In this document: piece by piece, positions 9,848 through 33,300 of the stretch
How positions within the stretch are numbered: position 1 is the first letter of the stretch
Layout: each line of letters opens with the position of its first letter
NCBI GenBank assembly: GCA_025463305.1
Contig: JAOBWK010000023.1
Coordinates: 1-36,291, forward strand
Direction: 5' to 3'
DNA: 36,291 bases
Source: Ilumatobacteraceae bacterium
Lineage (GTDB): Bacteria > Actinomycetota > Acidimicrobiia > Acidimicrobiales > Ilumatobacteraceae
Notes under the pieces: generated by a model
What the model saw: the letters and a program-made list of their open reading frames with translations, nothing else
What the model was told of the DNA's origin: nothing
Database searches by the model: none
Position numbers and translations under genes: made by a program

Positions 9848-10001
9848 GAACGAGCCTCCCGGCCTCATTGTGCCCGTACCACGGATCGGCTGCGCCAGAT
9901 CCGCACTCGGCTCGCAGACCTCGTCGAGCAACGTCATCGAACGTGACCGTAGAGCGGCACCGTGTGAACGAACGTGTGACGCCTCGGCACCGCCTCCGTC
10001 G

Positions 10002-10199: not shown

Positions 10200-10284
10200 G
10201 GCTCGCTCCGAGATCGTTGTCGAGTCCTGAGCTTCTCATCGCCGGACGCATCCAGCAACCGTCCGGTCATTGCGGGTGCCCAGT

Positions 10285-10297
10285 GCATACAATATGC
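10285..10297. promoter_or_regulatory. palindromic AT-rich site, likely -10 region of the lipoprotein gene
   Basis: GCATA-CAA-TATGC is a 13-bp inverted repeat standing out in a GC-rich 260-bp divergent spacer between 10199 and 10460. It contains TACAAT (10288-10293), a good -10 for the plus-strand gene, which would give a 5' leader of about 160 nt. Read on the minus strand it contains TTGTATGCACT, resembling the GntR-type sites at 28610 and 36018. I see no further gene in the rest of this spacer. Confidence 0.35.
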
Positions 10298-10459
10298 TCT
10301 CCTGCGTTCGTGGGAACGTCGGCGGCTGGGGGCCGATCGATGTTCAGGATGCGCACGGGGGTGCGTTCGTCGGTGTCGATCGGAATGGTCGTCGCTGCTC
10401 AACATCCTCCCGGCGCGGCACCACGACCGTTGACCATCGACAAACCCTGGGGGATGCAA

Positions 10460-13656: not shown

Positions 13657-13679
13657 GGTCACCTTCCCGATGCCGGCGA

Positions 13680-16590: not shown

Positions 16591-16670
16591 TCGGCAACAC
16601 CCATCTCGCAACCCCCTGCGATTGTCACTTCACTCGATTGAGCGGCAGTTCAGGACTCTATGCGATGCGC

Positions 16671-16676
16671 TACGGT
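16671..16676 (+). promoter_or_regulatory. possible -10 element, near-leaderless promoter
   Basis: TACGGT matches TANNNT and ends 8 nt before ATG 16685. There is no Shine-Dalgarno before this gene. The spacing is 2 nt longer than at the other leaderless starts in this window. Confidence 0.3.
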
Positions 16677-16684
16677 CGCGCCAC

Positions 16685-18897: not shown

Positions 18898-18943
18898 GGC
18901 GACCTCCCCCACAGGCGCGTCCACGACGCGCGTTCATTTCTTC

Positions 18944-18955: not shown

Positions 18956-19036
18956 AGAGTCTCGCACCGCGCTGTAGTCTTGGTCGCGAGCCAGTCACGG
19001 TGGACGCCGGGGGTCGATGGGGATGCAGGTAGCCAG

Positions 19037-19810
19037 ATGAAGGTAGATGGTCAGATCGCGCTGGTGACCGGCGCCGGCTCGGGTCTCGGCGAGGCCACGG
19101 CGCGGTACCTCCACGGCCGCGGCGCCACGGTCGTGCTGTTCGACCTCGATCCCGTGCGCACACCCGCCATCGCGGCCGAACTCGGCGATCGTGCCATCGC
19201 GGTCATCGGCGACGCAACATCCGAGACCGATACCGCTGCCGCAGTGCAGGCCGCCACCGAAGCCGGTGGGCTTCGCCTCGTCGTCGCCTGCGCCGGCGGT
19301 GCGTCGAAGAGCGAGCGCCTCGTCAACCGTGACGGCTCGCCGCACGATCTCGATCTGTTCCTGCGCACCCAGCAGCTCAACGTCGTCACCACCTTCAACA
19401 CGGTCCGCCTCGCCGCTGCGGCGATGGCCAAGCTCGACCCCCTCGACGCCGACGGTCAGCGTGGTGCCATCGTCACCACGGCCTCGATCGCCGGCTACGA
19501 GGGCCAGATCGGCCAGATCGCCTACGGAGCCGCAAAGGCCGCGATCATCGGCATGACCGTCATCAGCGCTCGCGACCTCGCCTCCATCGGCGTGCGGGTC
19601 AACTGCATCGCGCCGGGAACCATCGGCACCAGGGCCTGGGACCAGGCGCCGGCCGAGATGCGCGCCGGGTTCGAGGCGAAGGTGCCGTTCCCGAAGCGGT
19701 TCGGCCATCCCGAGGAGTTCGCCCGGCTGGCCGAGCACCTCCTCACCAACGACTACATGAACGGTCACGTCGCGCGCATCGACGGCGGCATCAGGTTCGA
19801 GCCGAAGTGA
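19037..19810 (+). CDS. SDR, HSD10/3-hydroxyacyl-CoA dehydrogenase-like
   Basis: 257 residues from ATG 19037 (MKVDGQIALVTGAGSGLG); only a weak Shine-Dalgarno (AGGT) is visible, but the cofactor motif starts at residue 11. Motifs are TGAGSGLG (11-18), D36 in LFDLD, which favours NAD over NADP, and the S150/Y163/K167 catalytic set (YGAAK). It ends with HVARIDGGIRFEPK. Resemblance to type-2 3-hydroxyacyl-CoA dehydrogenase suggests oxidation of a 3-hydroxyacyl-CoA before thiolysis. It is the first gene of the plus-strand operon; its stop overlaps the thiolase start (GTGA). Confidence 0.87.
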   Translation: MKVDGQIALVTGAGSGLGEATARYLHGRGATVVLFDLDPVRTPAIAAELGDRAIAVIGDATSETDTAAAVQAATEAGGLRLVVACAGGASKSERLVNRDGSPHDLDLFLRTQQLNVVTTFNTVRLAAAAMAKLDPLDADGQRGAIVTTASIAGYEGQIGQIAYGAAKAAIIGMTVISARDLASIGVRVNCIAPGTIGTRAWDQAPAEMRAGFEAKVPFPKRFGHPEEFARLAEHLLTNDYMNGHVARIDGGIRFEPK

Positions 19811-21000
19811 GCACGATCACCGACCCCCACGACGCCGTCATCGTCGCCGCCGGGCGCACCGCGATCGGTCGCTCGCACCGCGGTTCGCTCGTCGACGTCG
19901 ACGCATTCGCACTCGCCAGGGTGGCCATCCAGGGTGTGCTCGACCGCTCGGGCATCGATCCGCTGCTGCTCGACGACATCGTCATGGCCGAGTCGCTGCA
20001 GGGCGGCGGCGTGATCGCGCGGCACAGCGCGGTCGAGCTGGGCCTCGCGCACGTGCCCGGCCTCGCGGTCAACCGGCACTGCGCCGCCGGGCTCGGGGCA
20101 CTGCAGATCGCCGCCTCGTCCATCCGCGCCGGCATGGACCGTGCCGTCATCGCCGGCGGCACGGAGAGCCTCAGCTCGATGCCCCAGACGCTCAAGGCCC
20201 AGCCGGCGTCAGGCCGCGACTTCCAGCCATGGATGTCGCCGAGCCACACCGCCACCGCCGATGCGCCCTCGTTCGACATGTCGATCACGGTCGGCGAGAA
20301 CACCGCTCGGCTCGCCGACGTCACTCGCGAGCAGGCCGATGCGTGGGCGCTGCAGTCGCATCAGCGCGCCGCACGTGCCACGGCCTCCGGCGCTGCCGCC
20401 GCCGAGATCCTGCCGGTCACCGTCGCCACTGCCGACGGAGCCATCAGTGTGTTCGACACCGACGAGCAGCCACGCCTCGACACCACGCTCGAGCGCCTCG
20501 CCGGGCTGAAGCCGCTGCATCCGGAGATCGACGGCTTCACCGTCACGGCCGGCAACGCAGCCGGGCTCAACGACGCGGCTGCGGCCGTGATGATCGTGTC
20601 CGCCGAGTTCGCTCAGTCCCATGGGCTCTTGCCGCTCGGCCGCATCGTCGGCTGGGCGTCCGTCGGCGTGACGCCGGAGCGCACCGGCCTCGCACCGACG
20701 CTCGCGATCCCCGAGGTGCTCCGCCGCACCTCGATGACGATCAGCGACATCGACTCGTGGGAGATCAACGAGGCGTTCTGCTCGGTCGCCGTCGCGAGCA
20801 CCCGCATCCTCGGCCTCGATCCCGAGCACGTCAACGAGAACGGCAGCGGTTGCGGCCTCGGCCACCCCGTCGCCGCGACGGGTGCACGGATGGTGGTCAC
20901 GATGCTCAACCACCTCCGCCGCACCGGTGGCACCAACGGCTGCGTGTCGATGTGCGCCGGTGGGGGCATGGGCTCGGCGATGGTGGTGGAGCTGCTGTGA
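19807..21000 (+). CDS. thiolase (acetyl-CoA acyltransferase family)
   Basis: 397 residues from GTG 19807, overlapping the previous stop. All thiolase catalytic features are present: nucleophile C92 (NRHCAAGLGALQIAA), NEAF (321-324), H353 (GLGHPVAATGARM) and C383 (SMCAGGGMGS). The length is normal for degradative thiolases. It would cleave a 3-ketoacyl-CoA with CoA to release acetyl- or propionyl-CoA. The GENTARL and DEQPRLDTTLERLAGLKP segments are typical of FadA-type enzymes. Together with the SDR upstream it forms the last two steps of a beta-oxidation round. Its stop overlaps the Rieske start (GTGA). Confidence 0.93.
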   Translation: MSTITDPHDAVIVAAGRTAIGRSHRGSLVDVDAFALARVAIQGVLDRSGIDPLLLDDIVMAESLQGGGVIARHSAVELGLAHVPGLAVNRHCAAGLGALQIAASSIRAGMDRAVIAGGTESLSSMPQTLKAQPASGRDFQPWMSPSHTATADAPSFDMSITVGENTARLADVTREQADAWALQSHQRAARATASGAAAAEILPVTVATADGAISVFDTDEQPRLDTTLERLAGLKPLHPEIDGFTVTAGNAAGLNDAAAAVMIVSAEFAQSHGLLPLGRIVGWASVGVTPERTGLAPTLAIPEVLRRTSMTISDIDSWEINEAFCSVAVASTRILGLDPEHVNENGSGCGLGHPVAATGARMVVTMLNHLRRTGGTNGCVSMCAGGGMGSAMVVELL

Positions 21001-21938
21001 CCACCAAGCGCTATCCGTTCCCCATCCCGTACGGCTGGTTCTCGCTCGGCCGCGTCGACGAGCTGGCGCCCGACGACGTCGTGCCGCTGGACCGCTTCGG
21101 GCGCGACCTCGCGCTCTGGCGCGACGGCGACGACTTCCACCTGTTCGATGCGTTCTGCCCGCACCTCGGCGCGCACTTCGCGTACGGCGGTCGCGTCGAC
21201 GACGGCTGCCTCGTCTGCCCGTTCCACGAGTGGACGTTCTCGCCCAGCGGCGAGAACGTGTCGATCCCCTACGCCGAGCGGCCCAACCGCAAGGGCCGCG
21301 TCCGCAGCTACCCGACGGTGGTCCGCAACCGCCAGCTGCTCGCCTGGTACCACCCCGACCCCGAGGTGCAGCCGATCTGGGAGATCCCCGAGGCGCTGCC
21401 CGAGGATCCCGTCGAGTGCATGCGCTTCACCACCACGATCCACACCGCGTGGCAGGAGCTGGCCGAGAACTCCGTCGACATGGCCCACTTCAAGTACGTG
21501 CACGGCACGAGCCGCATCGCCGACATCGGCGAGATGACCATCGACGGTCCGCTCCGCCAGGTCCGCAGCACCCAGGTCTTCCAGTCGTCGAAGGGCGAGT
21601 TCGAGGGCCAGATCGAGTCCAACAGCTACGGCCCGGGCATCGGCGTGATCCACTTCACCCTGATGAGCCGGGTCACCCTGATCAGCGCAGTGACCCCGAT
21701 CAGCGACGAGGAGGTCGAGATGCGCTTCACGATGTACCACGCAGCCGGCGACACCCTCGCCGGCAAGATCGCGCAGGGCTTCGGCGCCGAGGTGACCCGC
21801 CAGCTGCAGCAGGACATCCCCATCTGGGAGCACAAGCAGTACCAGCCGAGCCCGATGCTCGCCCCGTCGGAGAAGGCCATCACCCAGTTCCGCAAGTGGG
21901 CCACCCAGTTCTACGTACGCACGGAGGTAGAGGAATGA
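20997..21938 (+). CDS. Rieske non-heme iron oxygenase, KshA-like oxygenase component
   Basis: 313 residues from GTG 20997, overlapping the thiolase stop. The Rieske [2Fe-2S] cluster ligands are C54/H56 (CPHLGAH) and C74/H77 (CPFHEW). The catalytic iron site is in ENSVDMAHFKYVHG, with D161, H164 and H169 as ligands or bridge. The IPYAERP segment and CPFH-E/D-W pattern recall 3-ketosteroid 9-alpha-hydroxylase oxygenases (KshA) and related sterol oxygenases, though the protein is shorter than KshA. It would hydroxylate a ring or alkyl position using electrons from a ferredoxin/reductase that is not in the window. It is paired with the amidohydrolase directly downstream (ATGA overlap). Confidence 0.88.
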   Translation: MTTKRYPFPIPYGWFSLGRVDELAPDDVVPLDRFGRDLALWRDGDDFHLFDAFCPHLGAHFAYGGRVDDGCLVCPFHEWTFSPSGENVSIPYAERPNRKGRVRSYPTVVRNRQLLAWYHPDPEVQPIWEIPEALPEDPVECMRFTTTIHTAWQELAENSVDMAHFKYVHGTSRIADIGEMTIDGPLRQVRSTQVFQSSKGEFEGQIESNSYGPGIGVIHFTLMSRVTLISAVTPISDEEVEMRFTMYHAAGDTLAGKIAQGFGAEVTRQLQQDIPIWEHKQYQPSPMLAPSEKAITQFRKWATQFYVRTEVEE

Positions 21939-23215
21939 ACGCGAGCGATCTCATCCTGATCAGCGTCGACGACCACCTGGTCGAGCCGCCGAACATGTTC
22001 GACGCCCACATCCCCGAGCAGTACCGCGACCGCGCGCCGCGCGTCCACCGCAAGAAGAACGGCTCCGACGTCTGGATCTTCAATGGCCAGGAGATCCCGA
22101 ACATCGGCCTCAACGCCGTCGCCGGCCGGCCGAAGGAGGAGTACGGCATCGAGCCGACCGCCTTCGACGAGATGCGCCCCGGGTGCTGGGACATCGACGA
22201 GCGGATCAAGGACATGAACGGCGGCGGCCTCCTCGGCTCGATGTGCTTCCCGTCGTTCCCCGGCTTCTCCGGTCGCGTCTTCGCCACCGCCGAGGACAAG
22301 GACCTCGCCATCGCCGTGCTGCGCGCCTACAACGACTGGCACATCGACGAGTGGTGCGGCGCCTACCCCGGCCGGTTCATCCCGATGGGCCTCGTGCCAC
22401 TGTGGGATCCCCAGCTCGCCGCCGACGAGGTGCGGCGCATCGCCGCGAAGGGCGTGCACAGCATCACGTTCACCGAGAACCCGGCGACGCTTGGCTACCC
22501 GAGCTTCCACAGCCCGCACTGGGATCCGCTGTGGACCGCGTGCAGCGATCACGATGTCGTGCTCTCGATCCACCTCGGCTCGTCCGGCAAGCTCGCCATC
22601 ACCGCGGCCGACGCGCCCATCGACGTGATGATCACGCTGCAGCCGATGAACATCTGCCAGGCGGCCGCCGACCTGCTCTGGTCACGGATCCCCAAGCACT
22701 TCCCGAACCTCAAGATCGCCCTGTCCGAGGGCGGCACCGGCTGGATCCCGTACTTCCTCGACCGGCTCGATCGCACCTACGAGATGCACCACCTCTGGAC
22801 CGGGCAGAACTTCGGCGACCAACTGCCGAGCGACGTGTTCCGCAAGCACTTCCTGACCTGCTTCATCTCCGATCCCGTGGGCGTGCAGCTGCGCGGGCTG
22901 ATCGGCATCGACAACATCGCGTGGGAGTGCGACTACCCGCACTCCGATTCGTCGTGGCCGGCAGCGCCGGAGGAACTGGCGGCGGTCGCGGCCGGCGTAC
23001 CGGACGACGAGCTCGACAAGATCAGCTACCAGAACGCGATGAAGTGGTACTCGTTCGATCCGTTCCAGCACCGTGCCAAGGCGGACAGCACCGTCGCCGC
23101 GCTCCGTGCCGAGGCCGGCGATCACGACGTCGAGATCCGTCCGTTCGACAAGGGCCGGTTCACCAAGCAGGTCGGCATCGACCTCGGTGATCTGCAGGCC
23201 AAGGCCACCGCATGA
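21935..23215 (+). CDS. amidohydrolase family protein (ACMSD/COG2159-like)
   Basis: 426 residues from ATG 21935, with GGAGGTAGAGGA upstream. Metal-site residues of the ACMSD-type TIM barrel are visible: D12 and H14 (VDDHLVEPP), H213 (SIHLGSS), E265 (LSEGG) and D333 (WECDYPHSD). Members do decarboxylation or C-C/C-N bond hydrolysis on aromatic or cyclic acids and need Zn or Mn. The set of residues suggests an active enzyme, but the reaction cannot be named. It is translationally coupled to the Rieske oxygenase before it and the P450 after it (ATGA overlaps), so it probably acts on the oxygenated product. Confidence 0.87.
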   Translation: MNASDLILISVDDHLVEPPNMFDAHIPEQYRDRAPRVHRKKNGSDVWIFNGQEIPNIGLNAVAGRPKEEYGIEPTAFDEMRPGCWDIDERIKDMNGGGLLGSMCFPSFPGFSGRVFATAEDKDLAIAVLRAYNDWHIDEWCGAYPGRFIPMGLVPLWDPQLAADEVRRIAAKGVHSITFTENPATLGYPSFHSPHWDPLWTACSDHDVVLSIHLGSSGKLAITAADAPIDVMITLQPMNICQAAADLLWSRIPKHFPNLKIALSEGGTGWIPYFLDRLDRTYEMHHLWTGQNFGDQLPSDVFRKHFLTCFISDPVGVQLRGLIGIDNIAWECDYPHSDSSWPAAPEELAAVAAGVPDDELDKISYQNAMKWYSFDPFQHRAKADSTVAALRAEAGDHDVEIRPFDKGRFTKQVGIDLGDLQAKATA

Positions 23216-24408
23216 GCACGTCCGTCCCGCTCGCGTGGGATCCGTTCGACGAGGCGATCGACACCTCGCCGTACGAGATCTGGCAGCGGTTGCGAGACGA
23301 GGCGCCGCTGTACCGCAACGAGCAGCACGACTTCTGGGCGTTGAGCCGTTACAGCGACGTCGAGTCCGCACATCGCCAACCGACCGTGTTCAGCTCGAGC
23401 CACGGCACCGTGCTCGAGGTGATGGGTCCCCGGGCGATGGAGACCGGGATGATGATCTTCAAGGATCCGCCCGACCACACCGCGCTGCGTTCCCTGGTCA
23501 ACCGCGCGTTCACACCGCGCCGCATCGCCGAGCTCGAGGACCGGATCCGTGCCGACAGCCGCAACCTGCTCTCATCGTGGGTGCCGGGCGAGCCGTTCGA
23601 CTACGTCGAGCAGTTCGCCAGCCCGCTGCCGGCGATGGTGATCGCCGAGCTGCTGTCGATCCCGGAAGCGGACCGGCCCCAGGCCCGGTACTGGATCGAC
23701 GACGCGTTCTACATCGAGCCCGGTGTCGGCATGATCAACGATCAGTCGATCACGGCGATGGCGAACCTGCACGTCTACCTCGAGGCGCTGCTGCGCGAGC
23801 GCGGCGCCAACCCCGGCGACGACATGCTCTCGGCGCTCACCCAGGCCGAGATCGGCGAGGGCGACGCCACTCGCCGGCTCTCCTACGGCGAGTGCGCCGA
23901 CTTCGCGGTGCTGTTGATCTCTGCCGGCACCGAGACCGTCGGCAAGCTGCTCGGCTGGGCCGCGCTCCTGCTCGGCGAGCTCGACGATCAGCGCCAGATC
24001 CTCGTCGACGAGCCTGCCGTCATCCCGAACGCGATCGAAGAGCTCCTCCGCTACGAGGCACCGTCGCCGGTGCAGGGACGCTGGACGCTCGACGACGTCG
24101 AGCTGCACGGCACGGTCGTCCCTGCCGGCTCGAAGGTGCTCCTGCTCACCGGTTCTGCTGGTCGCGACGAGCGCAAGTACGAGCACGCCGATCGGCTCGA
24201 CGTGCGGCGCCGGTTCGACCACCACGTCTCGTTCGGCTTCGGCATCCACTTCTGCCTCGGCGCGGCCCTCGCCCGCCTGGAGGGGCGCGTCGGTCTCGAG
24301 GAGACGTTGGCGCACGCACCTCAGTTCAGCTCCGACCGATCGAGCGCTGTGCAGTGGCACACGAGCACCGTGCGCGGATGGTCGAGCCTGCCGGTGACGA
24401 GTCGATGA
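23212..24408 (+). CDS. cytochrome P450
   Basis: 398 residues from ATG 23212, overlapping the previous stop by 4 bp. It is a complete soluble class I bacterial P450: I-helix AGTET (238-242) for oxygen activation, ExxR at E277-R280, and heme loop FGFGIHFCLGAALARLE with C348 as the proximal ligand. DPPDHTALRSLVNRAFTPRR near residue 85 is typical. It probably hydroxylates a hydrophobic terpenoid, steroid or alkyl substrate. No ferredoxin or reductase gene is near, so it must borrow redox partners. It is co-translated with the TetR gene downstream (ATGA). Confidence 0.95.
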   Translation: MSTSVPLAWDPFDEAIDTSPYEIWQRLRDEAPLYRNEQHDFWALSRYSDVESAHRQPTVFSSSHGTVLEVMGPRAMETGMMIFKDPPDHTALRSLVNRAFTPRRIAELEDRIRADSRNLLSSWVPGEPFDYVEQFASPLPAMVIAELLSIPEADRPQARYWIDDAFYIEPGVGMINDQSITAMANLHVYLEALLRERGANPGDDMLSALTQAEIGEGDATRRLSYGECADFAVLLISAGTETVGKLLGWAALLLGELDDQRQILVDEPAVIPNAIEELLRYEAPSPVQGRWTLDDVELHGTVVPAGSKVLLLTGSAGRDERKYEHADRLDVRRRFDHHVSFGFGIHFCLGAALARLEGRVGLEETLAHAPQFSSDRSSAVQWHTSTVRGWSSLPVTSR

Positions 24409-25157
24409 CATCCACCGCCGCCCGCACCGGACGGCCGCCGCGCATCGACCGGGCCGCGATCGCGCGGGCCGTCATCGAGCTCGGCTTCGATCGCGTCACG
24501 ATGAAGAGCACCGCCGCGCACATGGGCATGAGCGTGCCGGGGCTCTACCACTACGTCAAAGGCCGCGACGAGCTGCTGCGCCTGGCCGCGGAGTACAGCC
24601 TCGCGTCGGTCGCGATCCCGCAGTTCACCGGCCAGGACTGGCAGACGTGGCTTCGTGAGTGGGCGCGCTACACCCGCACCACGATGTCGGCGCATCCCGA
24701 GGTGCTCGAGCAGTTCCTCACCGGCGGCATCGACAGCACGCGGCACGTCGAGGTGGTCGAGCACATCCTCGCGGTCTTGGTCGACCACGGCTTCGCTCCC
24801 GTCGATGCTCAGCACGCCTGGCTGATGGTGAGCGCCATCGCGCTCGGCACCGCGGCGATGGACATCGGCGAGGCGACGGCGCGGGTCGACGGCCGGCCCT
24901 GGATCGCGCGAGTCCACGGCGAGCTCGCCCGCCATCGATCCGACGAGCTGCCGGTCACCCGTGCGCTCGTCGCCCAGGGTTTCGCACCGGAGCCGGACCG
25001 CGACTTCGAACGCAGCCTCGATGTCGCCATCGCCGGCATCGGCGCGCTGCGGAACGAGCCGAAGCGCACGACCCGGCGATCGAAGGCCGCACCCGAGTCG
25101 GCCCCGAGAATGACCAGAACGCCAACCAGCACCAGCACCGACAAGGACCCCGACTGA
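24405..25157 (+). CDS. TetR family transcriptional regulator
   Basis: 250 residues from ATG 24405, overlapping the P450 stop. The helix-turn-helix lies near 27-55 (ITMK-like VTMKSTAAHMGMSVPGLYHYVKGRDELLRL). The C-terminal ligand-binding region is helical, and the last 25 residues are a Lys/Arg/Thr-rich tail ending TSTSTDKDPD. It sits inside the operon and so would be made only when the operon is on, a design that gives product-limited repression. The palindrome at 18944 is its best candidate site. Its stop TGA overlaps the next ATG by one base. Confidence 0.9.
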   Translation: MTSTAARTGRPPRIDRAAIARAVIELGFDRVTMKSTAAHMGMSVPGLYHYVKGRDELLRLAAEYSLASVAIPQFTGQDWQTWLREWARYTRTTMSAHPEVLEQFLTGGIDSTRHVEVVEHILAVLVDHGFAPVDAQHAWLMVSAIALGTAAMDIGEATARVDGRPWIARVHGELARHRSDELPVTRALVAQGFAPEPDRDFERSLDVAIAGIGALRNEPKRTTRRSKAAPESAPRMTRTPTSTSTDKDPD

Positions 25158-26791
25158 TGGCACGTGAAACCTGGATCGCGGAGCGGCAGACGACGATCCC
25201 CCGCCTGCTCGATGCGCGGCTCGAGTCCGCTCCCGACGAGGACTACATCGACGTGTGCGGGACGTCGTTCACGGCTGCCGAGGTGGCCCGATCCGCCTAT
25301 GCACTCGCGAACACCTATGCCGCGCTCGGGATGCGTCCGGGCGACCGGATCGCGAGCGTGATCGAGAACTCCCCCGAGGCGCTCCTGGCGTGGTGGGGCG
25401 CGGTGTCGGGCGGCTTCGTGGCCGTGCCGATCAACACCGCGTACAAGGGCGAGTACCTCCGCCACCAGCTGCACGACTCGGGCGCTCGGGTGCTCGTCGT
25501 GCACGCGGACTTCCTCGACCGCGCCCTCGCGGTCATCGACCAGGTGCCGATGCTCCAACACGTCGTCGTCATCGGCACCGCTGCCGGCGAGGGATCCCAC
25601 GCCGCCGCGTTCCACGCCTGGACCGACGTCCTCACCGGCGACAGCACCCGGCCGACGCACGAGCCGAAGCCATCGGACCTCGGCACGTTCGTCTACACCG
25701 GCGGCACGACCGGCCCGTCGAAGGGCTGCATGCTCAGCCACCACTACCACAGCGCGCTCACGACCCAAATCGGGGTCTGCTGGGGCCGCACCGCGCAGGA
25801 CGTGGTGTGGACGCCGCTGCCGATGTACCACTTCAACGCGCTCGTCACCGCCGTGCTCGGGCCGCTCGTCTACGGCGGACGATCGGCGATCTCACGTCGG
25901 TTCTCGGTGTCCAGCTTCTGGCCGGAGATGAACCGGGTCGGGGCCACCGTCACCTCGACGCTCGGAACGATGGCCTACCTGCTGGCCCACGACGTCGACA
26001 ACCCGCACATGCCCAAGTCCGGCGCACCCGAGGCGAACACGTCGCTCCGGCTGATCGGGGCCGCTCCCCTGCCGGTCGAGATCGACTCGATCCTCAAGTC
26101 CCGCTTCGGCGTGAACACGTTCAGCGGCGCCTACGGCGTCACCGAGGCGAGCCTGATCTCGTGGCAGCCGGCCGGCGGGCAGAACAAGCCGAACGCGGCA
26201 GGTGTGATCAACGACGAGTACTTCGACGTGCGCATCTTCGACGACGACGACAACGAGCTCGGCCGCAACACCGACGGCGAGATCGTGATCCGCCCCAAGC
26301 GTGCCCACGTGATGTTCGAGGGCTACTGGGGGCGGCCCGAGGCCACCGTCGAGACGTCGCGCAACTGGTGGTACCACACCGGCGACATCGGCCGGATCGA
26401 CGACGAGGACTTCCTCTACTTCGTCGACCGCAAGGCCGACTACCTCCGCCGGCGCGGTGAGAACATCTCCAGCTTCGAGGTCGAGCGGATCCTGATGAGC
26501 CACGGCCAGCTCGCCGATGCCGCCGTGCACGCCGTGCCGAGCGCGCTCACCGAGGACGACCTCAAGGTCACCGCCACCCGGATCGAGGGATCCACGCTGA
26601 CCGAGGCCGAGCTGTACCTCTGGTGCGTCGACCAGCTGCCGTACTTCGCGATGCCGCGCTACGTGGAGTTCCGTGCGGAGCTGCCACGTAGTCCGGTCGG
26701 CCGCGTCCTGAAGCGCGAGCTGCGCACCGAGGGGGCCACCGCGAACACGTGGGACGCCGAAGCGTCCGGCATCGTCATCGAGAAGCGCTGA
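25157..26791 (+). CDS. AMP-dependent acyl-CoA synthetase/ligase
   Basis: 544 residues from ATG 25157 (TGATG overlap with TetR). It belongs to the ANL superfamily: P-loop YTGGTTGPSKG (180-190, with Gly where Ser is usual), the GAYGVTEAS motif, and WWYHTGDIGRIDDEDFLYFVDRKADYLRRRGENIS, which covers the Asp/Arg hinge. SPVGRVLKREL carries the catalytic Lys near the C-terminus. It should activate a carboxylic acid with ATP to an acyl-adenylate and then to acyl-CoA, feeding the FadE, crotonase and thiolase steps. Similar enzymes are found among bile-acid and crotonobetaine-type CoA ligases, but the substrate is unknown. The next gene follows after 45 bp. Confidence 0.93.
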   Translation: MARETWIAERQTTIPRLLDARLESAPDEDYIDVCGTSFTAAEVARSAYALANTYAALGMRPGDRIASVIENSPEALLAWWGAVSGGFVAVPINTAYKGEYLRHQLHDSGARVLVVHADFLDRALAVIDQVPMLQHVVVIGTAAGEGSHAAAFHAWTDVLTGDSTRPTHEPKPSDLGTFVYTGGTTGPSKGCMLSHHYHSALTTQIGVCWGRTAQDVVWTPLPMYHFNALVTAVLGPLVYGGRSAISRRFSVSSFWPEMNRVGATVTSTLGTMAYLLAHDVDNPHMPKSGAPEANTSLRLIGAAPLPVEIDSILKSRFGVNTFSGAYGVTEASLISWQPAGGQNKPNAAGVINDEYFDVRIFDDDDNELGRNTDGEIVIRPKRAHVMFEGYWGRPEATVETSRNWWYHTGDIGRIDDEDFLYFVDRKADYLRRRGENISSFEVERILMSHGQLADAAVHAVPSALTEDDLKVTATRIEGSTLTEAELYLWCVDQLPYFAMPRYVEFRAELPRSPVGRVLKRELRTEGATANTWDAEASGIVIEKR

Positions 26792-26836
26792 CCGCGCCCG
26801 ATCATCCGTTCATCGAAGAGAAGCGAAGGCAAGGAC

Positions 26837-27748
26837 ATGAGCTCACTGTTGGCAGGCAAGGTCGCGATCGTCACCGGTTCCGCGCACGGCATCGGTCGCG
26901 GGCACGCGCTCGAGCTGGCCAAGCACGGCGCCACGGTGGTCGTCAACGACCGCGGCGTCAGCGTGCGCGGTGAAGGGTCGGGGCAGGACGCCGACCTCAC
27001 CGTCGACCTGATCCGCGCCCGTGGCGGCACCGCTGTCGCCAACTACGCCGACGTCGCCGACGAGGCCGACGTCGACGCGCTGTTCGCCCAGGCCATCGGC
27101 GAGTTCGGCAAGGTAGACATCCTCGTCAACAACGCGGGGATCGCACGCGACGGAGCGATCTGGAACATGTCAGCCGACGACTACGACGCCGTCATGCGGG
27201 TGCACGTCCGCGGCACCTGGATGCCGTCACGTGCCGCCGCCCGTCACTGGCGCGAGCGCTTCGCCACCGAGGGCAAGGTCGGTGGCCGGATCATCAACAC
27301 CACCTCCGGCGCCGGGCTCGTCGGCAACTTCGGGCAGACCAACTACGCCACCGCCAAGGCCGCGATCGCCGGGCTCACCCTCACCACCAGCCTCGAGCTG
27401 TTCCGCTTCGGTGTCACCGTCAACGCTGTCGGGCCCGGCGGCGCGACGCGCATCGTGGCGACGATGCCCGGCGCGCCGAAGTTGCTCGAGCCCGACGAGC
27501 TCGCCGAGGACCAGTACGACCCGATGGACCCTGCGGGCAGCTCACCGCTCGTGGCTTGGCTGGCCAGCGACGAGGCCGACCACGTCACCGGTCAGGTCAT
27601 CCGCGCGATCAACGACCGCATCGTGCTGATGGACGGCTGGTCCGAAGCCCGCGAGGTCGCCAGCGGCGAGAAGCGCTGGGACGCCACCAAGCTCGGCCAG
27701 ATCCTGGCCACCGACCTCTTCCGCACCCGCTCGCCCGGCCTCCGCTGA
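26837..27748 (+). CDS. SDR, MFE-2/17-beta-HSD4-like
   Basis: 303 residues from ATG 26837, with AAGGCAAGGAC upstream. Motifs are TGSAHGIG (13-20), VNDRGVSVRGEG, typical of the peroxisomal multifunctional enzyme type 2 dehydrogenase domain, NNAG (98-101), S157, and Y170/K174 (YATAK). The C-terminus (GWSEAREVASGEKRWDATKLG) is longer than in simple SDRs. It probably oxidises a 3-hydroxyacyl-CoA of a bulky, ring-bearing substrate. It is the last gene of the plus-strand operon and converges with the SDR ending at 27777, 28 bp away. Confidence 0.88.
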   Translation: MSSLLAGKVAIVTGSAHGIGRGHALELAKHGATVVVNDRGVSVRGEGSGQDADLTVDLIRARGGTAVANYADVADEADVDALFAQAIGEFGKVDILVNNAGIARDGAIWNMSADDYDAVMRVHVRGTWMPSRAAARHWRERFATEGKVGGRIINTTSGAGLVGNFGQTNYATAKAAIAGLTLTTSLELFRFGVTVNAVGPGGATRIVATMPGAPKLLEPDELAEDQYDPMDPAGSSPLVAWLASDEADHVTGQVIRAINDRIVLMDGWSEAREVASGEKRWDATKLGQILATDLFRTRSPGLR

Positions 27749-27776
27749 GCGAGCCGGCGCGTCACGCCGCGAGCGA

Positions 27777-28604
27777 TCAGTAGCGGCCGTAGAGGAAGTC
27801 GACCGCCGGCGTCGCATCGGGGAACGAGCCGGTGATGCCCGAGCTGATGTAGCCGGAGTCGGCGATCATGATGATCCCGTTGATCTGGCTGGCGGCCGGA
27901 CTGCACAGGAACGCCAACGGTCCCGCCTGCTCCTCCGCCGTCGATGCCTCGACGCCGGCTTCGGCGCGGTAGTCGGCACCGAAGCCGAGCCACAGGTCCG
28001 CCTGCGAACGAGCGAGCGGCGTGTCGGTGGGACCGGGGAGGATGGCGTTGATCCGGATGCCCTGCTTGATGAACGTCAAGGCCTGCCGCGCGACGTACGC
28101 GCACACGGCCTGCTTGCTCCACATGTAGTCGGCCTTGTACTGGCGCGACGCGACCCACTCGACGCCGGCGTCGAAGTCGGGCGTGTCGAGGTAGTCCTTC
28201 AACTCCTCGAGGTTCTTCTCCCACGCGAGCCCGGCCGTGGACGAGATCATCCCGATCGCCGATCCTCGCCGCAGCATGCCGGCCCCGATCGCCCGCTCGA
28301 TGAGGTGGCGATGCCCGAGGAAGTTGATCTTCTCGATGCCCGGCACGCCATCGGCCACACCCGCGCACGAGAACAGCGCATCGATCGGGCCGCCGCACGC
28401 ATCGATGGCAGCGTCGATGCTGTCCTTGCTGCGCAGGTCCAGCGAGATCGACGTGACGCCGGGCTGGGTGATCTCGGCGAAGTCCATCACCACGACCTCG
28501 GCACCGAGCTCTTGGACCAGTGCTGCGGTGGCAGCACCCATGCCGGTGGCACCGCCGACGACCAGCGCGCGCTTGCCATCGAAACGAAATGAATCTGCGT
28601 TCAT
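27777..28604 (-). CDS. SDR, hydroxysteroid-dehydrogenase-like
   Basis: 275 residues from ATG 28604. The start is supported by TACAGT exactly 6 nt upstream (leaderless) and by MNADSFRFDGKRALVVGGATGMG. Motifs are GGATGMG (17-23), D41 for NAD binding, a CAG in the NNAG place (80-82), S121/S122, and Y160/K164 (YMWSK). A long insertion (WEKNLEELKDYLDTPDFDAGVEWV) between Ser and Tyr resembles 3-alpha-hydroxysteroid and coniferyl-alcohol dehydrogenases. It shares a 53-bp divergent promoter region with the GntR gene and is probably its direct target. Confidence 0.87.
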   Translation of the reverse strand: MNADSFRFDGKRALVVGGATGMGAATAALVQELGAEVVVMDFAEITQPGVTSISLDLRSKDSIDAAIDACGGPIDALFSCAGVADGVPGIEKINFLGHRHLIERAIGAGMLRRGSAIGMISSTAGLAWEKNLEELKDYLDTPDFDAGVEWVASRQYKADYMWSKQAVCAYVARQALTFIKQGIRINAILPGPTDTPLARSQADLWLGFGADYRAEAGVEASTAEEQAGPLAFLCSPAASQINGIIMIADSGYISSGITGSFPDATPAVDFLYGRY

Positions 28605-28609
28605 CTGCG

Positions 28610-28622
28610 CACTGTATACAAA
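28610..28622. promoter_or_regulatory. leaderless promoter and likely GntR operator
   Basis: CACTGTATACAAA contains the palindromic core GTATAC. On the minus strand TACAGT (28616-28611) is a TANNNT -10 ending 6 nt before ATG 28604. The 13-mer recurs with one change (CACTATATACAAA) at 36018-36030. FCD-type GntR repressors commonly bind TTGTATACAA-like sites, and two such regulators are encoded next door. Confidence 0.55.
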
Positions 28623-28657
28623 GTGGTTTCGTCGATCCGCACCCTGCGGGGGTCGTA

Positions 28658-29383
28658 GTGTCGGCCGAGATGCCCACCACCACACCGGACACCGTCGATG
28701 GTCGCATCCCACCGCCCCGCAGGCTCACGCGGGAGAGCAGCTCCGAACAGGTCGCCGCGCACGTGCGTCACCGGATCATGGCGGGCCAGCTGCGCAAGGG
28801 TGACCGGCTGCGTCAGGAGGACCTCGCCGCCGAGCTCGGGCTGAGCCGCATCCCGGTGCGCGAGGCGATGATCGCCCTCGATCGCGAAGGCTGGCTGCAC
28901 TTCGAATCGAACCGCGGCGCGTTCGTGGCCGGCTTCGACGCCGACGACATCGTCGATCACTACGAGATCCGCGGCCTCGTGTTCGGCCTGATCGGGCGGC
29001 GGGTCAGCGAGGTCGCGACTGCCGACGACATCACCCGGCTGGCAGCGCTCGTGCACGAGATGCGCGCCGCTCCGGATCTGGCGACGTTCGCCGTCGCCAA
29101 CGATCGTGCGATCGGACGGCTCCTCCGGCTGGCCGACTCGCCGCGCCTCACAGCCGCTCTGCTCGTCACGCCGGCGATCGTGCACGAGGGCTTCTTCGAG
29201 TTCGTCCCGGCGGGGCGGGCGATCCAGGAACGCGGCGTCGCCGCCTTCCTCAAGGCCGTGCGCGCACGGTCCCACGACGCAGCAGACGCCGCGCTGTGCA
29301 CGATGCTGCGTCGCCAGGGCGTGGCCGTGCTCGCGGCGTTCACGGCCAGCGGCGTGGTGAGCGGCCCCGCCAGCAGCTCCTGA
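28658..29383 (+). CDS. GntR family transcriptional regulator (FCD type)
   Basis: 241 residues from GTG 28658, preferred because GGGGG ends 5 nt upstream. ATG 28670 is the alternative; TAGTGT at 28656-28661 would place it 8 nt behind a -10. The N-terminal winged helix is typical: VAAHVRHRIMAGQLRKGDRLRQEDLAAELGLSRIPVREAMIALDREGWLHFESNRGAFV. A helical FCD-like ligand domain follows, but the usual Asp/His metal ligands appear replaced (VANDRAIGRLLRLADSPRL). It is divergent from the SDR and 33 bp ahead of a second, similar GntR gene. Confidence 0.87.
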   Translation: MSAEMPTTTPDTVDGRIPPPRRLTRESSSEQVAAHVRHRIMAGQLRKGDRLRQEDLAAELGLSRIPVREAMIALDREGWLHFESNRGAFVAGFDADDIVDHYEIRGLVFGLIGRRVSEVATADDITRLAALVHEMRAAPDLATFAVANDRAIGRLLRLADSPRLTAALLVTPAIVHEGFFEFVPAGRAIQERGVAAFLKAVRARSHDAADAALCTMLRRQGVAVLAAFTASGVVSGPASSS

Positions 29384-29403
29384 TCACCGCGTTCGCGCTG
29401 AGC

Positions 29404-29410
29404 GTATACT
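29404..29410 (+). promoter_or_regulatory. leaderless promoter with GTATAC core
   Basis: TATACT (29405-29410) is a near-perfect -10 ending 6 nt before ATG 29417, and GTATAC (29404-29409) repeats the core of the site at 28610. Autoregulation by one of the two GntR proteins would follow from this arrangement. Confidence 0.5.
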
Positions 29411-29416
29411 TGATCC

Positions 29417-30103
29417 ATGCCACCCACGGTCGCTCGATCGGCCCGACACGCGCCGCGGCCGGGTGAGTCGATCGCCGACGCCGTGGCACGGCTGGTGCGA
29501 GCCCAGATCTTCGAGGGGCAACTGGTGGCTGGGCAGCGCCTCCCCCAGGACGACATCGCCGCGTCCGTCGGCGTGAGCCGGATCCCGGTGCGCGAGGCCA
29601 TCATCACGCTCGAGCGCGAGGGTTGGGTGCGGGTCGAGCGGCACCGCGGCGCGTTCGTCACCGTGTTCGACGAGCAGGCCGTCCTCGACCGGTTCGCGCT
29701 GTACGGCCGGCTCTACGGCTTCGCGGCCGTTCGCGCGTTGCAGCGGATGACGCCGGACGATCTGCGCACGCTCCAGCGATCGGCCCAGACCCTGGCCCGG
29801 GTGGCCGGTCCGAAGGCGTTCGAGCGGGCCAACAACGAGTACATGAGCACGTTCGTCAGCCTGTCGGGCTCGAGCCGGCTGCGTGCCGTGCTGCGGTCCA
29901 CCGCGCAGATCGTGCCGGGCAACTTCTTCGCCACCGTGCCGAAGAGCGTAGGGATCCAGCGCAACGGCGTCGGCCGCCTGCAGCACGCCTTCGACACCGG
30001 CGACGCATCCGGCGCCGAGCAGATCTGGCGGGCGATCGAGGACGAGCACGCACTCGCGGTCATCGACGTGATGCACGCTCGGCGCCGATCACGGGGAGCT
30101 TGA
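29417..30103 (+). CDS. GntR family transcriptional regulator (FCD type), paralog
   Basis: 228 residues from ATG 29417, leaderless by its -10. Winged helix: IADAVARLVRAQIFEGQLVAGQRLPQDDIAASVGVSRIPVREAIITLEREGWVRVERHRGAFV, closely similar to the gene before it, so the two probably arose by tandem duplication. The FCD-like domain has RANNEYMSTFVSLSGSSRL where an Asp and a His metal ligand normally stand, suggesting a metal-free ligand pocket. It may respond to a CoA ester or acid intermediate of the pathway. The downstream amidohydrolase is 83 bp away. Confidence 0.87.
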   Translation: MPPTVARSARHAPRPGESIADAVARLVRAQIFEGQLVAGQRLPQDDIAASVGVSRIPVREAIITLEREGWVRVERHRGAFVTVFDEQAVLDRFALYGRLYGFAAVRALQRMTPDDLRTLQRSAQTLARVAGPKAFERANNEYMSTFVSLSGSSRLRAVLRSTAQIVPGNFFATVPKSVGIQRNGVGRLQHAFDTGDASGAEQIWRAIEDEHALAVIDVMHARRRSRGA

Positions 30104-30125
30104 CCACGGGCTGCTTGACATCGGG
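30098..30125 (+). repeat. 13-nt imperfect direct repeat ahead of amidohydrolase gene
   Basis: GCTTGACCACGGG (30098-30110) and GCTTGACATCGGG (30113-30125) match at 11 of 13 bases with a 15-bp period. The second copy includes a perfect -35 TTGACA (30115-30120), but a matching -10 is not evident. They lie at the end of the GntR gene, before the amidohydrolase start at 30187, and could be a regulator site. Confidence 0.25.
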
Positions 30126-30186
30126 CCATTTCGATGAGAGTTTTCACATTGCATTCGGGAAGTCGTTCAGCACCTTGGGGGTCGTC

Positions 30187-31392
30187 ATGAGCAAGTACCT
30201 GGTCGTGTCCGCGGATGGTCATGCCGGCCCACCCATGCACGTCTACCGCGAGTACCTCGAGGAGCGCTTCCGCGAGCCGTTCGATGCGTTCCAGGAGGCG
30301 CTCACCGCGGGGCGGATCGTCAACGAGGCCTTCGTCGCCGAGTGGGACGAGGAGACGGGTGATCACGAGTTGCTGGCCGCGTTCGATTCCGACGCACGCC
30401 TCGAGGTGCTCGATCGCGAGGGGGTTGCGGCCGAGGTGCTGTTCCCCGATGCCGATGTGCTCGGCACCGGCCGCGCCGCAGCGTCGCCGTTCGGCAGCGG
30501 CCTCGCCTCGGGCAACGGCGGCGACACCGAGAGCGTGCTCGCGGGATCGCGGGCACACAACCGCTGGCTCGCCGACTTCGTGGCTGCCGCGCCGACCCGG
30601 CGCGTGGGGTGTGCCGTCATCCCGATCACCAAGGGGATCGACGAGGCCGTCGCCGAGATCCACCGCTGCGCTGCGGCGGGCCTCAAGGGCATCATGATCC
30701 CCACCCGCTGGTTCGACAGCCCGGCGTACCTCGACGCGAGCTACGACCCCGTGTGGGCGGCGTGCGAGGAGGTGGGCGCGATCCTGCACACCCACTCCGG
30801 AGCAGGCCCCGCCGACTACGAGCCGGGCCCGGGGTTCACGTCGATCTACGCCAACGAGGCGTGGTGGTGGGCCGCCCGCCCGCTGTGGGTGCTCATCCTG
30901 TCCGGCGTGTTCGAGCGGCATCCGACGCTGATGTACTCGATCGCCGAGAACGGCGCCTGGTGGCTCCCCGACATCATGAAGCGGATGGACGAGAAGTGGA
31001 TCGGCGGCCACACCACCCGCAAGTTCGGCGAGGCCGCGTTCCGGGGCGATCTGCCGATGAAGCCGAGCGAGTACATGGACCGCAACTGCTTCCTCGCCGC
31101 CTCCACGCCCAGCGAGGACGACGTCGAGCGCCGGCACGAGATCGGCATCGGCAACCTGCTCTGGGGCAACGACCTCCCCCATCCCGAGGGCACCTACCCG
31201 CACACCCGTGAGTGGATCACCAAGCGCTTCGGCCACGTGCCCGAGCACGAGGCGCGGTTGATCCTCGGCGAGAACGCGGCCACGCTGTACGGCCTGGACC
31301 GCGCCGCACTCGCGCCGATCGTCGAGCGGATCGGCATGACTCCGGACGAGGTCCACGGCGCGGCGGCTCTCACCAGCGCGGCGGGTGTGTGA
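30187..31392 (+). CDS. amidohydrolase family protein (ACMSD/COG2159-like)
   Basis: 401 residues from ATG 30187, with TTGGGGG 5 nt upstream. The same metal-dependent TIM-barrel family as the gene at 21935, but only distantly similar to it: D10/H12 (SADGHAGPP), H201/H203 (LHTHSGAG), E254 (SIAENGAWW) and D329 (WGNDLPHPEGTYP). A cluster of Trp residues (EAWWWAARPLW) suggests an aromatic or hydrophobic pocket. It could do ring-opening hydrolysis or decarboxylation. The stop overlaps the start of the second Rieske oxygenase (TGATG), mirroring the Rieske-amidohydrolase pair of the first operon in reverse gene order. Confidence 0.87.
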   Translation: MSKYLVVSADGHAGPPMHVYREYLEERFREPFDAFQEALTAGRIVNEAFVAEWDEETGDHELLAAFDSDARLEVLDREGVAAEVLFPDADVLGTGRAAASPFGSGLASGNGGDTESVLAGSRAHNRWLADFVAAAPTRRVGCAVIPITKGIDEAVAEIHRCAAAGLKGIMIPTRWFDSPAYLDASYDPVWAACEEVGAILHTHSGAGPADYEPGPGFTSIYANEAWWWAARPLWVLILSGVFERHPTLMYSIAENGAWWLPDIMKRMDEKWIGGHTTRKFGEAAFRGDLPMKPSEYMDRNCFLAASTPSEDDVERRHEIGIGNLLWGNDLPHPEGTYPHTREWITKRFGHVPEHEARLILGENAATLYGLDRAALAPIVERIGMTPDEVHGAAALTSAAGV

Positions 31393-32393
31393 TGTCGACC
31401 ACCGAGCTGCCCGTCGGCCTCCCCATGCCGAGACGACCCGAGCTGCTCGCACCCGGCGCGCCACGGCTGCGCGTCCGCACCGTCACCGACCGCTTCCCCT
31501 TCCCGATCCCCAACGGCTGGTTCGCGATCGCGCGCAGCGGCGAACTGGCGCCGGGCGAGATCAGGGCGATGCACCTCTTCGGCCAGGACCTCGTCGCGTT
31601 CGCGGGCGAGGACGGCGCCGTGCACCTCACGGAGGCCTACTGCCCCCACCTCGGCGCACACCTCGCGGTCGGCGGGCGCGTCGATCGGGACTGCATCACG
31701 TGTCCGTTCCACGGCTGGACCTTCGACGGCACCAGCGGTGCGTGCACCGACATCCCGTACGCACAGACCGAGCGGATCCCGGCTCGGGCGACGCTGCGCA
31801 CGTTCCCGGTGGTCGAGCGCAACGGGCTGGTGTTCGCATGGCACCACCTCGATGCCGGCGATCCGTTCTTCGAGGTGCCCGTGGTGCCCGAGTTCTCCAG
31901 CCCCGACTGGCTGCCGCTGATCATGAAGGAGTTCTTCATCGCGACGAGCTGCCAGGACATGGCGGAGAACAACCACGATCACGCCCACTTCAAGTTCGTG
32001 CACGGCACCGCGGCCATCCCCGAGGGCGACGAGCTCATCGACGGCACCTACAAGCGGGTCGTGACGCCCGAGCTCGCCCGGGAGACGTTCGGGCTCGGCC
32101 TCGGCGTGGTCCGCCGGCCCGGCATCGTGACGTTCCTGTCGTCCGTCACACCGATCGACGAGGACAACGTGCACATCCGCTGGATCTTCACCGCGCCGGT
32201 CTCGCTCGGCGAGCAGGTGCTGGCCGAGATCGCCGAGCAGTTCACGCTCGGCGTCAGCCAGGACATCCCGATCTGGGAGAACAAGGTCTACCGACCCCGG
32301 CCGGTGCTGACCAAGGGCGAGGCGGGCATCGTGGCGCACCGCAACTGGTCGGCGCAGTTCTACTCACGGCCCGTGGAGATCCTGGAGCACTGA
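31392..32393 (+). CDS. Rieske non-heme iron oxygenase, KshA-like oxygenase component
   Basis: 333 residues from ATG 31392 (TGATG overlap). The Rieske cluster is C84/H86 (CPHLGAH) and C104/H107 (CPFHGWTF). The mononuclear iron site is AENNHDHAHFKFVHG, with D196, H199 and H204. After a 30-residue N-terminal extension it aligns along most of its length with the gene at 20997 (FPFPIPNGWF, HLGAHLAVGGRVD, DIPYAQTER, SQDIPIWENK), so the two are paralogs. The catalytic pocket segment has HD rather than VD before the histidines. It probably oxygenates a different position or intermediate of the same substrate. It converges with the SDR at 32419. Confidence 0.88.
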   Translation: MSTTELPVGLPMPRRPELLAPGAPRLRVRTVTDRFPFPIPNGWFAIARSGELAPGEIRAMHLFGQDLVAFAGEDGAVHLTEAYCPHLGAHLAVGGRVDRDCITCPFHGWTFDGTSGACTDIPYAQTERIPARATLRTFPVVERNGLVFAWHHLDAGDPFFEVPVVPEFSSPDWLPLIMKEFFIATSCQDMAENNHDHAHFKFVHGTAAIPEGDELIDGTYKRVVTPELARETFGLGLGVVRRPGIVTFLSSVTPIDEDNVHIRWIFTAPVSLGEQVLAEIAEQFTLGVSQDIPIWENKVYRPRPVLTKGEAGIVAHRNWSAQFYSRPVEILEH

Positions 32394-32418: not shown

Positions 32419-33300
32419 TCAGCGACCGATCTCGTGGACCTCTGTCGGGTTCTCCTGGGCGATGATCCGGTCGAGCCGCGCCCGCAACGTCGCCTCCGGC
32501 CCCTCCATCGACATGATCATCATGAACCGACCGCTGCGGATGTCGCGCACCACCATCTGGGCGAGCTCGTCGAGCGGCTGCAGTGGCACCTCTCGCCCGG
32601 CCTCGGCGGCCATCTTCTGGAGACCCTCGATGGTCATCGCCGGCGTCGAACGCGGACGCTCGCGCGCCAGCTCCGACGGCCGGTTGCGATCCGACGTCCA
32701 CAGCCCGGTGGCGAGCAGGCCGCGCCCGGACGGATAGAACACCGCGGCGCGCAGTGCGGTCCCGTCGGCGACGAGCTGGGCATCGAGGCACTCGGTCAGC
32801 GTCGTGACGGCCGATTTGGTGGCGGCATAGACGGACGCTGCCGGCATCGGTGCGATCGGGCCGTCGGTGGACGAGGTGTTGATCACCAGCCCCTCTTCGC
32901 CGCCGGCGAGCATCCGCGGCACGAACGCGATGACGCCGTTGGCGACACCGAACACGTTCACGCCGAAGGTCCAGCGCCAGTCGTTCGGGGTGGTGTCCCA
33001 GACCTTGGCCGACGGCGGCCCGACCCCGGCGTTGTTGCAGAGGATGTGCACCTTTCCGTACGCGGCATAGGCCGCATCGGCGAGTGCGTTGACGGAGTCG
33101 ATGTCGGTCACGTCGGTGCGCACGCCCATCACCTCGCGCCCGAGGACACGCAGCTCGGCGACCGTCGCCTCCAAGGCCGCAGCCTCGACATCGGCGATCA
33201 CCACCTTCATCCCCTCGCCCAGCAGCGCCTCGGCCAAGGCCCGACCGATGCCACCCGCGCCGCCGGTGACGACGGCGACCTTCCCCTCGAGATCATCCAT
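32419..33300 (-). CDS. short-chain dehydrogenase/reductase (SDR)
   Basis: 293 residues from ATG 33300, supported by TAGTGT 6 nt upstream (leaderless) and MDDLEGKVAVVTGGAGGIG. Motifs are TGGAGGIG (12-19), D37 for NAD, NNAG (89-92), S143/S144, and Y158/K162 (YAATK). The C-terminal region after the SDR core is unusual in lacking the VDGG end and has a longer helical tail (MTIEGLQKMAAEAGREVPLQP). It would act on a hydroxyl or keto group of unknown substrate. It is divergent from the two-domain VOC gene, with 66 bp between them carrying a promoter on each side. Confidence 0.87.
   Translation of the reverse strand: MDDLEGKVAVVTGGAGGIGRALAEALLGEGMKVVIADVEAAALEATVAELRVLGREVMGVRTDVTDIDSVNALADAAYAAYGKVHILCNNAGVGPPSAKVWDTTPNDWRWTFGVNVFGVANGVIAFVPRMLAGGEEGLVINTSSTDGPIAPMPAASVYAATKSAVTTLTECLDAQLVADGTALRAAVFYPSGRGLLATGLWTSDRNRPSELARERPRSTPAMTIEGLQKMAAEAGREVPLQPLDELAQMVVRDIRSGRFMMIMSMEGPEATLRARLDRIIAQENPTEVHEIGR

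Follow-up and report, generated by a model that had tools for sequence, protein, structure and literature searches.

KshA (3-ketosteroid 9alpha-hydroxylase) is a Rieske oxygenase that hydroxylates C-9, upon which the steroid ring opens. The second protein family considered here, PF04909, includes the mononuclear enzymes ACMSD, LigW and LigY, of which ACMSD carries a zinc site marked by an H-x-H motif and a catalytic His. Oxygenases belong to the same family: PtmU3 and AibH2 have been grouped as amidohydrolase-related dinuclear oxygenases (ARO), with a site that in SfbO comprises three carboxylates and three histidines (PMC10811679; this paper and PMC10127204, PMC10401708, PMC7782822 and PMC13063091 are cited for the part of their text that was available). 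PtmU3 hydroxylates C-5 of diterpenoid-CoA intermediates, and the related LynB7 binds its metals through D11, H13, H197, E252, D320 and H323, with D325 at the position where PtmU3 has E313 (PMC10127204). AROs co-occur with small Rieske proteins at a frequency of 90% (PMC10401708), and the 2-aminoisobutyrate monooxygenase AibH1H2-AibG-AibF is likewise a PF04909 dinuclear oxygenase adjoining a Rieske protein, here the small ferredoxin AibG with its flavin reductase AibF (PMC7782822). A small Rieske ferredoxin next door has served as a heuristic for locating AROs and does not strictly define them. We found no paper that describes a full Rieske oxygenase as an ARO neighbor, in a search outside which most subscription papers lay.

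Such neighbors probably occur twice in the stretch of DNA analyzed here (the window: 36,291 nucleotides, contig JAOBWK010000023.1 of assembly GCA_025463305.1, from an Ilumatobacteraceae bacterium, an actinobacterium that is probably uncultured); the full Rieske oxygenase is the new part, an ARO beside a small Rieske ferredoxin being already known. Pair A consists of Rieske A (start GTG) overlapping ARO A (start ATG), and pair B of ARO B (start ATG) overlapping Rieske B by four bases (Table 1), with coordinates, gene order and overlaps as a preliminary description of this DNA had given them. Rieske A contains a Rieske domain (E 8e-18) and a KshA_C domain (E 3e-31), both of which are also present in Rieske B (scored on a longer frame), and PF04909 matches ARO A at E 2e-36 (on a slightly longer frame) and ARO B at E 1e-20. 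The Rieske proteins are indeed paralogues (40% identity) and the PF04909 proteins more diverged (24%). Random gene order yields two disjoint Rieske-PF04909 adjacencies with a frequency of 0.0075 among the 33 called genes or 0.019 among 21 core genes, which a same-strand demand on both pairs would cut about fourfold (an estimate, not simulated). Fold family, all metal ligands, gene order, overlaps and the recurrence of pair B with a short-chain dehydrogenase/reductase (SDR) gene can be read directly from these sequences; we consider it likely that a polycyclic compound, probably an isoprenoid, is broken down by the cluster via CoA thioesters, and that both members of each pair are oxygenases, with no hydrolase in either pair.

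The nearest solved structures of ARO A are DitZ (E 1.3e-118) and PtmU3 (E 1.9e-38), followed far behind by ACMSD (E 6e-9), and those of ARO B are PtmU3 (E 1.4e-30) and then DitZ (E 2.7e-22). DitZ (Rhodococcus rhodochrous, PDB 8uyr) aligns with ARO A across residues 1-400, and the ligand motifs of the two (IAWECDYPHSDS) are identical; PtmU3 (PDB 6omp), a diterpenoid-CoA hydroxylase of platensimycin biosynthesis, shares the ligand motif of ARO B, including Glu as seventh residue, although its pathway is biosynthetic and identity in the fold match is 26%. The six dinuclear ligands of ARO A (D12, H14, H213, E265, D333 and H336, with D338 as seventh residue) are kept in 137 of 137 aligned rows, ARO B included (2 window proteins, 119 close ARO A homologues and 16 locus proteins), and the seventh position holds Asp in 128 rows, Glu in 8 and Val in 1. 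The six agree with the carboxylates and histidines of SfbO and with the LynB7 residues. Since identity to ARO A is 76% or more in most rows, this invariance tells less than the presence of the ligands in ARO A, ARO B and the locus proteins. A fold search with an AlphaFold model of ARO B (mean pLDDT 76.5, from 9 sequences) puts PtmU3, DitZ and SfbO at the top and ACMSD further down, every one of them in a single fold family. On account of ligand set, nearest structures and fold matches, "amidohydrolase", the annotation in those records that name ARO A- or ARO B-like proteins, is probably the wrong function, and both proteins are probably dinuclear oxygenases. Named close homologues of ARO A are metagenome-assembled genomes of Acidimicrobiales or Ilumatobacteraceae.

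Pair B recurs in the genomes of relatives, from which all counts were taken. Rieske B is rare among the genomes covered: in draws that overlap, it occurs in 2 of 396 genomes of the phylum at E 1e-80, in 5 of 58 at E 1e-75 (two at 53% identity or above, three at 43-45%), in 2 of 121 and in 3 of 37. Eight genomes have the Rieske B type at 52% identity or above, and in seven of them one copy has an ARO B type gene nearby, at up to 1.1 kb in six and at 5 kb in the seventh. In genomes G003, G092 and G743, ARO B and Rieske B are immediate neighbors that share a strand and follow the window order; the close kin G009 and G706 have an SDR gene within a 1.1-kb gap between the two, and G116 a P450 gene within the 5-kb gap. 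The neighbor in G041, 137 bases from Rieske B and divergent, is a 49-50% paralogue, the best ARO B of that genome (62%) lying elsewhere beside an ARO A type gene. In the 20-kb stretch that carries the Rieske B type gene of Frankia G007 there is no ARO B, nor is there one on the short contigs that carry second Rieske B copies in G009 and G706 (the G009 copy has a weak PF04909-type match 5.4 kb off). Orthologues of SDR6 (58-68%) adjoin pair B in G003, G092, G743, G009 and G706, and SDR6, ARO B and Rieske B keep together in the first three, while the other scanned neighbors differ: some of those in G092, G003, G743 and G009 are sulfotransferases, a transposase, an isochorismatase, an acetoacetate-decarboxylase-like protein and binding proteins. 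Homologues of ARO A and Rieske B seem to lie on the same three contigs (lengths 46409, 55089 and 26110, judged from equal size among the best 120 listed for each), which would mean that the wider cluster probably exists in other assemblies.

The trees of the two pair B partners disagree at the window. ARO B groups with its G009 and G706 counterparts (support 100/99), whereas the window Rieske B groups with metagenomic proteins and the unpaired G009 and G706 copies, apart from the paired copies (several forks of this tree are moderately supported). Forcing it to join the paired copies costs 140 log-likelihood units (approximately unbiased test, p-AU 4.6e-5, the constrained group having been picked after identities had been seen). 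The window ARO B thus stands beside a different Rieske B paralogue than in its nearest relatives, and the pair B partners do not strictly co-evolve; the conflict, which amounts to one event, suggests that the association was kept, or made again, via a change of partner. Orthologues of SDR2, FadE1 and FadE2 (in G009 also of ECH2) adjoin the unpaired Rieske B copy on L171 and L218.

Pair A has a narrower distribution. In the closest relatives (contigs L226 and L227, ARO A 92% identical), the order is SBP2 (a substrate-binding protein), ARO A, P450 and CoA ligase, joined in G706 by SDR4. The two Rieske-profile matches of G009 at E 1e-20 are both of type B, no Rieske A is present on the 11-kb contig L228 of G743 (ARO A 80%), and in L002, where the upstream side is cut off, no Rieske A relative was found. 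Among the best 120 homologues listed for each, those of ARO A at 85-93% share no contig with those of Rieske A (matched by size and source, by eye; one equal contig size, 4134, came from different sources and was excluded). Rieske A relatives at 52-58% lie 1.5 kb from an ARO A type gene, divergently, in G003 and in the same cluster as one in G092. Pair A was probably assembled, or retained, solely in or near the lineage of the window. With pair A absent from the nearest relatives and the pair B trees in disagreement, the repeated pairing, read earlier as one acting unit, does not amount to two copies of a single conserved unit.

A census of KshA-like neighborhoods (80 loci kept of 322 found by a Rieske A/B profile, searched with iterated PF04909 profiles) places a PF04909 gene within 1.5 kb of 14 of the 80 anchors, eight of them AROs and six members of a short subfamily. 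PF04909 genes number 14 in the 228 kb beside anchors and 4 in the 928 kb farther out (fragments of L072 counted once), an excess of about 14-fold with a binomial p of 2e-7, which is too small because several loci are close kin. Six of seven KshA_C genes in G092, G116 and G003, genomes chosen for holding Rieske B, have a PF04909 match within 5.4 kb and five of seven within 2.1 kb (gaps taken from coordinates). In the control, six genomes picked for contiguity from 47 with matches, 2 of 10 Rieske genes have a PF04909 neighbor, both in G044 and of the short subfamily, and the other eight have none listed within 30 kb at E 1e-10. The idea that the two families associate elsewhere is upheld by the 14 loci and by pair B in several genomes, and is limited by the remainder of the anchors: the association is real, although most KshA-like genes lack it.

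The short subfamily (about 290 amino acids) has lost most ARO ligands. It overlaps or almost touches the Rieske gene in L003, L004, L016, L071 and twice in G044, where the two pairs lie 8 kb apart (L232:7726-9742 and L232:15632-17578), and it adjoins KshA-like genes in Actinomycetota, Chloroflexi and Proteobacteria in both orders, L053 and L058 being among the loci. Genes like ARO A (48-50%) also occur on plasmids, in Massilia, Sphingopyxis, Rhodococcus and Caulobacter, where they sit within acyl-CoA clusters of a similar kind; the incomplete annotation of the stretch shown lists no Rieske gene. In Sphingobium WTD-1 and M. branderi, a Rieske gene does lie near an ARO A-like gene.

Several observations weigh against the two-oxygenase reading. 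The 6- and 11-kb contigs L226 and L227 have no SDR3, thiolase or Rieske A between SBP2 and ARO A, and 66 of the 80 KshA-like anchors lack a PF04909 gene within 1.5 kb; together these imply that the two enzymes need not act together. The ARO B model is of moderate quality and of the same fold as ACMSD, LigW and LigY, and few AROs are characterized. The absence of pair A from close relatives favors an adjacency that is mostly incidental, two families abundant in acyl-CoA catabolic islands having met twice in the window by chance, as do the disagreeing pair B trees, the low count in the control genomes and the density of PF04909 genes in some Acidimicrobiia (35 matches in G092, 27 in G116 and 49 in G003, or 111 in about 11.6 Mb from genomes of 3.5-4.2 Mb; not all need be AROs). 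This explanation, possible if rather unlikely, sits poorly with the 14-fold excess beside KshA-like genes relative to their own flanks, non-independent as the loci are, and with the ARO B type near Rieske B in seven of eight genomes. A first look at G041 listed 86 ARO B candidates.

The preliminary description had labeled the PF04909 proteins ACMSD-type amidohydrolases and had proposed that Rieske oxygenation leads into a metal-dependent step, either C-C or C-N cleavage or decarboxylation, of the kind that a zinc-dependent hydrolase or decarboxylase of the ACMSD, LigW or LigY type would carry out. Family and fold are shared, all three enzymes appear among the fold matches of ARO B, and elsewhere KshA-like genes do adjoin the short, non-ARO subfamily. 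The metal site points the other way: ARO A and ARO B have D-x-H in place of the H-x-H of ACMSD and Glu where that enzyme has its catalytic His, their dinuclear ligand set is complete, and ARO A matches DitZ and PtmU3 far more strongly than ACMSD. We regard a hydrolase as improbable; metal-site residues and nearest structures indicate dinuclear oxygenases, and the cleavage proposal loses its support with the label. The lignin DDVA (5,5'-dehydrodivanillate) pathway (LigX, LigY and LigW) was rejected, ligands and nearest relatives being different.

Both Rieske proteins have KshA as best solved match, at 313 and 334 amino acids compared with 386-394 in the solved KshA chains. Across an alignment of 250 sequences (120 Rieske A relatives, 119 Rieske B relatives and 11 from loci), each of the four cluster ligands and four mononuclear-site residues is conserved with no more than one exception per group, these being gaps and single substitutions (for example, Asp for one His in P0167). 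Two His, one Asp and a bridging Asp are present in Rieske A and Rieske B, in roles that we take to be those of mononuclear-iron ligands and bridge. This conservation suggests that both proteins look like intact, working KshA-type oxygenases, not carriers alone, and it speaks against the quite improbable alternative in which the KshA-type protein passes electrons to the ARO within a single complex, whether or not it also oxygenates a substrate of its own: AROs are reported beside small Rieske proteins taken as donors (PMC10811679, PMC7782822, PMC10401708), and ARO B and Rieske B are translationally coupled and move together, yet the swap of Rieske B paralogues at the window gives no hint of a tight complex. 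Unlike the AibG-AibF system, the window has a full Rieske oxygenase: among scanned genes and the gaps read, we see no small Rieske ferredoxin beside the AROs, no other ferredoxin or reductase and no KshB-like partner reductase (the 36-kb stretch alone was covered), and there was no reductase or ferredoxin among scanned pair B neighbors in G092, G003, G743 and G009. A known steroid pathway as such was rejected, Rieske A and Rieske B scoring far under the curated cut-offs of matched NCBIfam models. No steroid pathway set is present in the window; the sole curated NCBIfam cut-off passed among scanned proteins is that of the thiolase, for the broad model TIGR01930. No named pathway with this gene set was found, as the preliminary description had supposed.

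Six-ligand AROs beside intact KshA-type proteins argue for pairs of oxygenases that would act on a polycyclic acyl-CoA, and the SDR gene beside pair B together with the CoA ligase, thiolase, FadE pair, crotonases and P450 leads us to propose a polycyclic isoprenoid. For metal content, O2 chemistry, substrate class and the order of steps we infer the following. The PF04909 proteins would be amidohydrolase-fold monooxygenases with an Fe2 or Mn/Fe center that hydroxylate unactivated carbon; the most likely target is the beta position of an acyl-CoA, at a point where ordinary beta-oxidation is blocked. An SDR would make the ketone, the KshA-type protein would then hydroxylate a second position, and retro-aldol cleavage would open the ring, leaving the resulting acids to the FadE, crotonase and thiolase gene products; a polycyclic isoprenoid could thus be opened at two places. 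We take C-5, the target of PtmU3, to be the carbon beta to the thioester carbonyl, and both this hydroxylation and that of C-9 by KshA would prepare a cleavage of retro-aldol type. To our knowledge, PtmU3 has no KshA-type partner. A very improbable extension treats SDR6, ARO B and Rieske B as a portable module whose two oxygenases work as one complex, in which the Rieske cluster supplies electrons to the dinuclear site as well as to its own iron and two hydroxyls are placed on a polycyclic substrate. If the two-oxygenase reading is true, a large reserve of dinuclear oxygenases for terpenoid- or steroid-like carbon lies unread in uncultured Acidimicrobiia; the Rieske/ARO pair would also bear on which protein reduces AROs, a KshA-type partner making this a two-gene question.

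For DitZ itself we found no paper on reaction or gene neighborhood; it does not appear in the dit-cluster papers PMC13063091 (available text) and PMC10710418, a third, PMC6891630, not having been searched for it. L235 carries an R. rhodochrous plasmid protein, which has an N-terminal start unlike that of DitZ. In Pseudomonas abietaniphila, 5-hydroxy-dehydroabietic acid has been ascribed to an unidentified P450 (PMC13063091); an enzyme of the PtmU3/DitZ type may be another candidate for its formation.

Table 1. Features of the catabolic cluster, in window coordinates
Feature	Coordinates	Strand	Description
Crotonase, two SDRs, FadE1-FadE2 pair; crotonase ECH2	12080-17524	-; ECH2 +	Same catabolic island; assigned by Pfam
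SBP2	17521-18924	-	Peripla_BP_6 substrate-binding protein; directly adjoins ARO A in closest relatives L226, L227
SDR3	18980-19810	+	SDR dehydrogenase heading the overlapping run; adh_short E 5e-37; start codon uncertain
Thiolase	19807-21000	+	Thiolase_N E 2e-54; TIGR01930 above cut-off
Rieske A	20997-21938	+	KshA-type Rieske oxygenase, 313 aa; cluster and mononuclear-iron ligands present
ARO A	21935-23215	+	PF04909 protein of DitZ type, 426 aa; six dinuclear ligands present
Cytochrome P450	23212-24408	+	PF00067 E 1e-18; 82-83% relatives come after ARO A in L226, L227
TetR-type regulator	24405-25157	+	
Acyl-CoA ligase	25157-26791	+	AMP-binding E 2e-60 (longer frame); start inferred from overlap
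SDR4	26837-27748	+	SDR dehydrogenase
SDR5	27777-28712	-	SDR dehydrogenase
GntR-FCD regulator 1	28697-29383	+	
GntR-FCD regulator 2	29417-30103	+	
ARO B	30187-31392	+	PF04909 protein of PtmU3 type, 401 aa; six dinuclear ligands, seventh residue Glu
Rieske B	31389-32393	+	KshA-type Rieske oxygenase, 334 aa; cluster and mononuclear-iron ligands present
SDR6	32419-33300	-	SDR dehydrogenase; five further genomes have an orthologue with pair B

Gene models combine six-frame open reading frames (ORFs), Pfam scans and a reading of start sites. Seven genes from SDR3 to the CoA ligase form a plus-strand run (18980-26791) in which every pair of neighbors overlaps by 1-4 bases, such that overlap is a feature of the whole run and not special to pair A; the TetR gene fills the gap 5' of the CoA ligase. 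Leftward of the run lie the FadE pair, SDRs and crotonases, and rightward SDR4, SDR5, two GntR genes, pair B and SDR6, with the GntR-FCD regulators in tandem immediately 5' of ARO B.

Of the two Peripla_BP_6 proteins (10217-12013 and SBP2), SBP2 remains near ARO A in many relatives; no permease is present among the scanned window genes. The left end of the window carries three RibD_C-type ORFs (811-2109, 2684-3739 and 4980-5582), near which lie an HTH_67 regulator (5622-6500) and a BTAD/MalT-like regulator (8036-10042). A 2,4-diaminopentanoate-dehydrogenase-like protein (34919-35989) occupies the right end, and weak relatives of it (32-45%) stand near some Rieske B or ARO A genes (L172, L155 and L156).

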